Assembly: GCF_009618275.1 (NCBI RefSeq)
Contig: NZ_WIAD01000033.1
Span: forward strand, 1 to 63,923
Reading direction: 5' to 3'
Origin: Roseimaritima sediminicola
GTDB taxonomy: Bacteria; Planctomycetota; Planctomycetia; Pirellulales; Pirellulaceae
Length of the DNA stretch: 63,923 nt
Part shown: piece by piece, positions 8,829-10,496 of the stretch
Position numbering within the stretch: position 1 is the stretch's first letter
How the letters are laid out: each line of letters begins with the position of its first letter
Notes under the pieces: generated by a model
What the model was told of the DNA's origin: nothing
What the model saw: the letters and a program-made list of their open reading frames with translations, nothing else
Database searches by the model: none
Made by a program: the position numbers and the translations under genes

Positions 8829-10496
8829 ATGAACGCAGCCCCTCGCGACGACGAAGCGTTTGCAGATGACCCCGACGGCGAGTTGCCGGAGGAGGCCGAG
8901 GCACCGGCCGCCGAGGATGCTCCGGCCGCCGAGGATTTGCACAGCGAGGAAGCGAGCGAGTGGGCTGACGAGCAAGCGGAGTCCGACGTGACGGACGACG
9001 AGTACGCCGACGAAGCGGACGAAGAGTACGCGTACGAGCCGGACGAAGAGTACGCCGGTGAGCACGACGACGACGAGCACGAGCACGAGCACGAGCACGA
9101 GCACGAGCACGAGCACGAGCACGAGCACGAGCAGGAGCAGGAGCAGGAGCACGACGACGACGAGCAGGAGCTGCACGAGTTCGCCGAAGCCGATCCCGAC
9201 ACCACGTCTGCCGACGAAGCCGCCGGGCAAGCCGAAGCCGCGGCGGAAGCCGAAGCGGCTGGGGAAGATGGCGATTTCGACGAACCGGTCGCGGACGATG
9301 CCGCGGACGAAGCCGCGGACGAAGGGTCAGCCGAGGACGCGTCCGGCGCCGGCCAAGCCGCCCCGGTCCCGGCGGTCGAGCGGGCGGCGGGGCTCGCACG
9401 CATCCTGCCAGCCGGTCAGACCATCGACCTGTTTCCCGATCCCGCCCGGTCGCTCCTCGGGGATGCGGTACGCTTTGTGGCCGACGCCCTGCAGGAACAA
9501 CTGCCGGCTTTGCTTGTCCAGCCTGCGGCGAACTCCGAGCTTCAGCGGTCGCTCGTCGCCCAGCTGACCGAGCGGACGTTTGGCGAGACCGCCGTGCTGA
9601 CCGCCGCAGCGGATTTAGCCGTCGAATGGGCGATCGCCGCGGCACGGGTTTACGGGTCGGGGCAAAAGTACAAGATCATCACCTTTGTCGGCGACGATCA
9701 TGGGCGAACCCTGGCGGGTCTGGCCGCCGGCGGCGAGCCGCAGCGTCAGTCCGGTCTGGGACCGCTGGTAGCCGGATTCTCGCACTGTCCGCTGGGCAAT
9801 GCGGCGGCCGTCGCCGAAGCGATCGACGAGGAAACCGCCGCGATCCTGCTCCAGCCGCTGCAGGCCGGCGACGGTTTGCGTGCCGCCGACACTGCGCTGC
9901 TCGTTCGCTTGCGTCAGTTGGCCGACGAGCACGGACTGTTGTTGATCTTTGACGAAAGCCAATTGCCGGTCGGGCTGAGCGGTCGCTTCAGCTACGCTCT
10001 GAACGAGCACACCCAGCCCGACATGCTGGTCCTGGGCCAGGGGTTGGCCGCCGGCTTGCCGCTGGGCGCGGTCGTCCTTTCGACTTCGCTGGCGTCCTCG
10101 CTGCCGTCGCATCCCGCCCTGGTCACCCCGCCGCTCAGTCCCGTCGTCGCCGCTGCGGCGATGGCCACGCTGCAGTGCCTGGACCAGCGAGGTTTGCTGG
10201 ACCAGGCCGCTGTGACCGGCGAAGCCTGGGGCGAGGACCTGAACAAGCTGGCCGAAGACTTCGAATTCGTTCGCCAGGCTCGCGGTCGAGGTCTGCTGCG
10301 AAGCCTGGAGCTGGACATCCCGGCCGAACCGCTGCAGAGGGTGCTCGCCGAACAGGGCATCCGCGTCGGCACGGCGGGTCCTCAACACCTACGGATGCAA
10401 CCCGCCCTGGATGTCGACGCCGCGGCGCTCGAGCAGTCCGTCCAGATCCTGCACACGCTTTTCCAAACCATCGAACGCGAACCCGCTCTCGGCTGA
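8829..10496 (+). CDS. ArgD-like class-III aminotransferase homologue lacking the PLP lysine, with acidic Glu-His repeat N-terminus
   Basis: A 555-aa protein in the argD position between argB and argF. Residues 1 to about 180 are extremely acidic and contain nine EH dipeptides, three EQ and a further EH (DNA 9075-9152), flanked by Asp runs; this part looks disordered and could bind metal. From about 185 on it aligns by eye with acetylornithine aminotransferase: [32 protein letters not shown] (Asp375 retained), then [18 protein letters not shown]. In active enzymes the last motif is LAKGLGGG; here the lysine codon is CAG (Gln404). The usual GAE phosphate-site motif is also changed, to AAD. The frame is open throughout, so this is a probable pseudo-enzyme with a kept fold, not a disrupted gene. 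Its role is unknown. Confidence 0.85.
9075..9152 (+). repeat. Hexanucleotide GAGCAC microsatellite inside a CDS
   Basis: Nine consecutive GAGCAC units (9075-9128), then three GAGCAG and one GAGCAC. In frame they encode (Glu-His)9(Glu-Gln)3Glu-His. Length changes would keep the reading frame. Confidence 0.9.

Follow-up and report, generated by a model that had tools for sequence, protein, structure and literature searches.

The arginine operon of Roseimaritima sediminicola (Pirellulaceae) raises the question of why a homologue of acetylornithine aminotransferase (ArgD) that lacks the lysine for pyridoxal phosphate (PLP) is kept between argB and argF, and of which protein carries out the ArgD step. 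The window analyzed here is the whole stretch of 63,923 nt of contig NZ_WIAD01000033.1 (GCF_009618275.1), taken from a genome of 6.2 Mb in 185 contigs that is 98.9% complete. The gene order in the window is argB, Lys-less ArgD homologue, and argF, all on the plus strand. The position between argB and argF, the same as that of canonical ArgD in relatives, is called the slot below, and its product the slot protein. The features are as follows.

7795-8727, plus strand: argB, acetylglutamate kinase (TIGR00761, 219.2 bits, above cut-off); the true start is probably inside this frame
8829-10496, plus strand: Lys-less ArgD homologue (pseudo-ArgD, the slot protein), 555 aa (open frame, profile matches, and alignment with relatives)
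8829-9341, plus strand: acidic low-complexity N-terminal tail, residues 1-171 of the slot protein (60-residue windows, D+E at least 40%)
9073-9154, plus strand: 6-bp tandem array, 13.7 copies, encoding the His-Glu/Gln-Glu run of the tail
9600-9623, plus strand: codons 258-265, TAAADLAV at the site of the canonical C-N-S-G-A-E-A-N phosphate-site motif (alignment)
9690-9710, plus strand: codons 288-294, GDDHGRT at the site of GGFHGRT, with the Phe replaced (alignment)
10038-10040, plus strand: codon 404, CAG (Gln), at the PLP lysine position (sequence and alignment)
10534-11493, plus strand: argF, ornithine carbamoyltransferase (TIGR00658, 316.6 bits, above cut-off)

Long open frames on the minus strand at 8792-9645, opposite the tail-coding part of the slot gene, are probably due to chance in a G+C-rich repeat region.

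Genomes and slot survey

The family survey was a draw of 199 genomes and the class survey a draw of 158. Proteins over the ArgD cut-off were found in 85 of the 199 family genomes and in 147 of the 158 class genomes. The ArgD-less count is an upper bound because other class III proteins reach 300-400 bits in some of the genomes counted in this way (e.g., G015, G063, G108, and G071), and two (G067 and G185) carry cut pieces of ArgD. The slot was examined in 25 of 32 chosen ArgD-less family genomes using the stretch from argB onward: 14 had an ArgD-like protein before argF, 10 had argF directly next with no ArgD-like match between argB and argF, and 1 (G015) ran into the contig end. The 14 proteins were combined with the 4 from the window's genus (G000, the window's genome, to G003) into one set of 18 slot proteins from eight genera. 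Seven ArgD-less genomes (G042, G046, G056, G066, G069, G079, and G099) had no argB match at 1e-40, including G099 (98% complete) and G046 (94% complete); an assembly gap, a divergent argB, or loss of the pathway are the options.

Loss of the active site in the slot protein

The window's slot protein matches Pfam Aminotran_3 over residues 183-543 (160.9 bits), and its best matches among solved structures are acetylornithine aminotransferases. Against the ArgD family TIGR00707 it scores 192.3 bits and misses the cut-off of 410.05 bits. The first-pass annotation had described an intact frame with Gln in place of the PLP lysine, and this was confirmed: the 555 codons are open, and in the alignment with ArgD proteins of the same family and order Gln404 sits in the PLP-lysine column. 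H-G-R-T (residues 291-294) and D-E (residues 375-376) are retained, as it had also stated, and VTPPLS stands where ArgD has the TFGGN motif. Its reading of the phosphate site as GAE changed to AAD holds for the loss of the motif and is one residue off in register, G-A-E being aligned with A-D-L. AlphaFold2 run on the slot protein with a two-sequence input gave a mean pLDDT of 39.

The PLP-lysine column holds Q (window), A, E, and S in the four genomes of the genus. Lys was present in all 26 canonical ArgD proteins from other genera (L011-L036; the canonical ones among 30 matches with loci from a search of 40 genomes). The 14 slot proteins from seven further Pirellulaceae genera also lack it, so that Lys is absent from 18/18 slot proteins (A in 13, S in 2, and G, Q, and E in 1 each) and present, in the same alignment, in 14/14 canonical ArgD rows (13 genomes, with G005 twice). 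Divergence is greatest in the slot proteins of G062 and G144, whose alignment is less certain. A loss shared by all 18 proteins of eight genera exceeds chance or sequencing error, and a recent point mutation with Lys kept in the orthologues, the result that could have undone the first-pass reading, was looked for and is ruled out by the four genus genomes and the 14 slot proteins of other genera.

Canonical ArgD has 161 invariant columns; 36 of these are lost in 18/18 slot proteins, and at 30 the canonical residue is still found in 14 or more of the 18. Among those absent throughout are the lysine, the NSG Asn, the Phe preceding HGRT (the ring-stacking residue of ArgD), and F, G, and N of TFGGN. 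Another consensus is shared by 13-17 of the 18 slot proteins at 20 canonical-invariant columns, including the lysine column. The Asp-Glu of FDEVQ is largely retained (D in 18/18, E in 16/18). The Arg of HGRT is not retained throughout the 18, which rules out ligand binding through this residue as a common property. Binding of PLP or acetylornithine without catalysis, which had been suggested for the window's protein, is not supported so far, since the lysine, the phosphate-site Asn, the Phe before HGRT, and F-G-x-N are gone in every slot protein. As judged from the alignments, the slot protein is almost certainly dead as an aminotransferase, and the first-pass view of it as a Lys-less pseudo-enzyme of arginine synthesis, unfit as a normal aminotransferase, is borne out at the sequence level, the protein being conserved as well.

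The acidic tail goes unmentioned in the first-pass annotation; the D+E content of the window's slot protein is 43% in residues 1-180 and 12% in the remainder. Comparable tails are N-terminal in G063, G108, G016, and G122 and C-terminal in G144. The scan (60-residue windows, D+E at least 40%) covered 16 slot proteins besides the window's, G003 being outside it, and 11 of them have no such tail. The acidic tail is an optional addition. A large protein at 11764-14439 on the minus strand of the window, presumably of the FtsK/SpoIIIE type, is also rich in D/E over part of its length, and such acidic low-complexity insertions may therefore be frequent in this genome.

Arginine pathway and candidate successor

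argJ was over its cut-off in 5/5 genomes tested and argC in 4/5 (G003 being partial), and arginine auxotrophy is therefore not supported; argB and argF persist alongside argC and argJ without a canonical ArgD. The search for a second, complete argD in the window's genus, suggested in the first-pass annotation, was negative: none of the class III proteins of G000-G003 exceeds the ArgD cut-off (4/4 genomes). A different intact class III enzyme was found instead, and it complements ArgD across the family.

The class III set of the window's genome consists of BioA, HemL, a domain in a 1,072-aa frame, the slot protein, one weak sub-cut-off match, and the following protein, here called X.

G000:C185:115437-116585, minus strand: X, intact class III aminotransferase, outside the arg operon

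X fits no NCBIfam family at that family's cut-off. The PLP lysine is present in 19/19 X loci together with ArgD-like SGA, GR(S/T), and DE(V/I)Q motifs, which indicates an intact class III PLP site. X was found in 127 of the 199 family genomes: 100 are ArgD-less with X, 14 have neither, 58 have ArgD only, and 27 have both. At a completeness of at least 90% these numbers are 84, 3, 41, and 24, respectively, i.e., X in 84 of 87 ArgD-less genomes vs 24 of 65 ArgD genomes (Fisher p ~1e-16, with kinship ignored and completeness as the only filter). Counted by genus, they are 18, 7, 36, and 7. Of the 14 X-less genomes among the 114 without ArgD, 11 are <90% complete, and G071, G118, and G148 are 91-94% complete, so that few of the fairly complete X-less family genomes lack ArgD (3 of 44 at ≥90%). 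The class III proteins of all three g51 genomes examined (G053, G102, and G126) are BioA, HemL, and X only.

In the class-wide draw, 11 genomes fell below the ArgD cut-off, of which the 6 in the family all have X and the 5 of other families all lack it; 4 of these 5 are <90% complete, and all 5 have sub-cut-off matches (1e-108 to 1e-116). The only genomes with X outside the family are three of a single genus, all with ArgD, and X presence does not therefore always mean ArgD loss. X complements ArgD across the family, and from this co-occurrence it is likely that X replaces ArgD.

NCBIfam identified BioA and HemL in G000 and in the three g51 genomes. Both thus have jobs of their own and were set aside as successors; a side activity is possible. 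The successor survey covered class III aminotransferases, and a successor of another class is possible as well. By eye in the first-pass ORF lists of G000, no successor was seen beside argC or argJ apart from one desulfurase-like protein near argJ, presumably a cysteine desulfurase from its motif. Two types of BioA alternate among the family genera: the G000 type (57-62% identical; loci L001 [G000], L127, L129-L131, L133, and L134) in G053, G102, G064, G062, G126, and G144, and the G009 type (44-60%; loci L042, L128, L132, and L135-L137) in G054, G076, G068, G013, and G121. A gene for an M20 peptidase (Pfam) adjoins X in 9 of 19 X loci, namely L120:8390-11176 (G000:C185), L157, L165-L169, L172, and L174, and its product is a candidate only for a deacylase partner of X.

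Selection and phylogeny

Each of the 18 slot genes has an uninterrupted frame over the length present; the G002 copy lacks the N-terminal portion. In the unsaturated pairs, both from other genera, dN/dS of the slot gene was 0.10-0.12 (G016-G122) and 0.065-0.076 (G014-G092), compared with 0.02-0.03 for argB and 0.04-0.06 for argF in the same two pairs and 0.025-0.057 for canonical ArgD pairs (G009-G089 and G060-G143). Selection on the slot gene is purifying, yet relaxed relative to its neighbors argB and argF. Six more divergent slot pairs gave 0.11-0.38 with dS > 1, YN00 returning no estimate for most of them. In the pair from the window's genus (G000-G001) the value was 0.29 for the slot gene at a dS of 1.37, near saturation, and 0.08 for argB, so selection in this genus is less certain. 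Homology to an enzyme with loss of its catalytic residues, as expected of a pseudoenzyme, was found in the slot proteins, and the accompanying purifying selection was found in the two pairs, both from other genera, that are not saturated.

In the protein tree, slot proteins and ArgD are split by a single branch with 100/100 support. In the ArgB+ArgF tree of 48 genomes, the window's genus groups with ArgD-bearing genera, though with low support (85/70); the AU test does not reject a topology in which slot-bearing genomes and g51 form a single clade (p-AU 0.454). A double origin of the Lys loss was considered on account of the weak branch and set aside: one clade is compatible with the AU test, and the slot tree has the single split. 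The ArgD label switches four times on the ArgB+ArgF tree, at least three of the switches being forced by well-supported branches, and X is present in 27 of 28 ArgD-less rows, the exception being the incomplete G003.

Interpretation

The account that we favor on balance is that the slot gene is dead, kept, and displaced by X, all three together. The slot gene would be the original argD of the argB-argD-argF operon, turned non-catalytic and retained, and the ArgD chemistry would have passed to X, coded elsewhere. X was probably present before ArgD was lost, since the two coexist in some genera. With X able to do the step, ArgD would have become dispensable; in several lineages it would have been deleted, leaving argB adjoining argF, and one group of genera would have kept its body, without the active site, for a non-catalytic job. 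The slot protein is very probably a selected, functional protein. It may have a regulatory or structural role, as the first-pass annotation had proposed, and the likeliest job would be binding or scaffolding of the arginine enzymes of the same operon (ArgB and ArgF); the acidic tail would then form a disordered, optional arm. Such a job is suggested by the argB-argF position, the apparent overlap or abutment with argF in G054, G055, G062, and G144 (starts assigned by a simple rule), the conserved Gly, Pro, and Asp, and the new consensus. That the slot protein is a scaffold or regulator of arginine enzymes in particular is a tentative assignment, held at somewhat less than even.

The same overlap or abutment with argF would fit a slowly decaying, functionless gene whose open frame is kept for argB-argF translational coupling. 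Few columns are conserved, ten genomes live without any slot gene, and two saturated pairs reach dN/dS values of 0.29 and 0.38, as such a relic might. This reading is nevertheless unlikely given that dN/dS is far below 1 in the unsaturated pairs, that no frame is broken among the 18, that 20 columns share a new consensus, and that tails were gained in some genera. Activity without Lys, with PLP or another cofactor and on the same or another substrate, has a precedent in ColD, a Lys-free PLP-fold enzyme, and would agree with the retained Asp-Glu of FDEVQ, but the residue that replaces Lys is variable and mostly Ala, and the phosphate-site and stacking residues are also lost, which makes a surviving enzyme very improbable.

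A further alternative is that the slot protein could be the dead partner of X or of another class III aminotransferase, needed for its activity or control. In ArgD structures, F-G-x-N of TFGGN reaches across the dimer into the partner's site, and its loss in 18/18 slot proteins speaks against such pairing. X does occur in 17 of 18 slot-bearing genomes (the exception, G003, is 82% complete), and a non-catalytic subunit with a live one has a precedent in SPTLC1/SPTLC2 (PMC10791800). However, X stands without a slot protein in 10/10 empty-slot genomes and beside intact ArgD in 27, and we consider a dead partner distinctly unlikely.

Extended to its full form, the favored account of a dead, kept, and displaced ArgD would make X an undescribed family of acetylornithine aminotransferases that took the place of ArgD on several occasions in Pirellulaceae, with ArgD converted once to a non-catalytic organizer or regulator of arginine synthesis that later gained acidic disordered arms at either end. 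As a whole, this scenario is speculative, and we would sooner doubt it than rely on it. No report of an ArgD pseudoenzyme or of ArgD loss in planctomycetes was found in the open-access literature searched. If the scenario is true, X is a new enzyme for a step of a core pathway. Within a single family, a central metabolic enzyme occurs in three states (intact, retained though dead, and deleted); its candidate successor is directly testable, and the genus series permits a direct test of why a dead enzyme persists. An argD label in these genomes would not imply an acetylornithine aminotransferase.

Comparison with known systems

Homology of the slot protein to ArgD (TIGR00707; PLP fold type I, class III) spans most of the domain, and the operon slot is the same; the slot protein differs in lacking the PLP lysine and the phosphate-site motif, in a score less than half the cut-off, and in the added acidic tail. 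SPTLC1 is likewise a fold type I protein that lacks the catalytic lysine and was retained in evolution. It is described in PMC10791800 as the non-catalytic subunit of serine palmitoyltransferase with SPTLC2 as the live partner. SPTLC1 differs in belonging to another class of the fold; its live partner is known, whereas X is present with no slot protein in every empty-slot genome. Non-orthologous displacement is known in amino acid biosynthesis, e.g., for the ArgA variants treated in PMC9026213, and the present case resembles it in that a pathway step would have moved to another protein, as read from co-occurrence. Unlike in such displacement, the body of the displaced enzyme stays in the operon without its active site, and the successor X is also of class III, i.e., a distant paralogue and not an unrelated fold.
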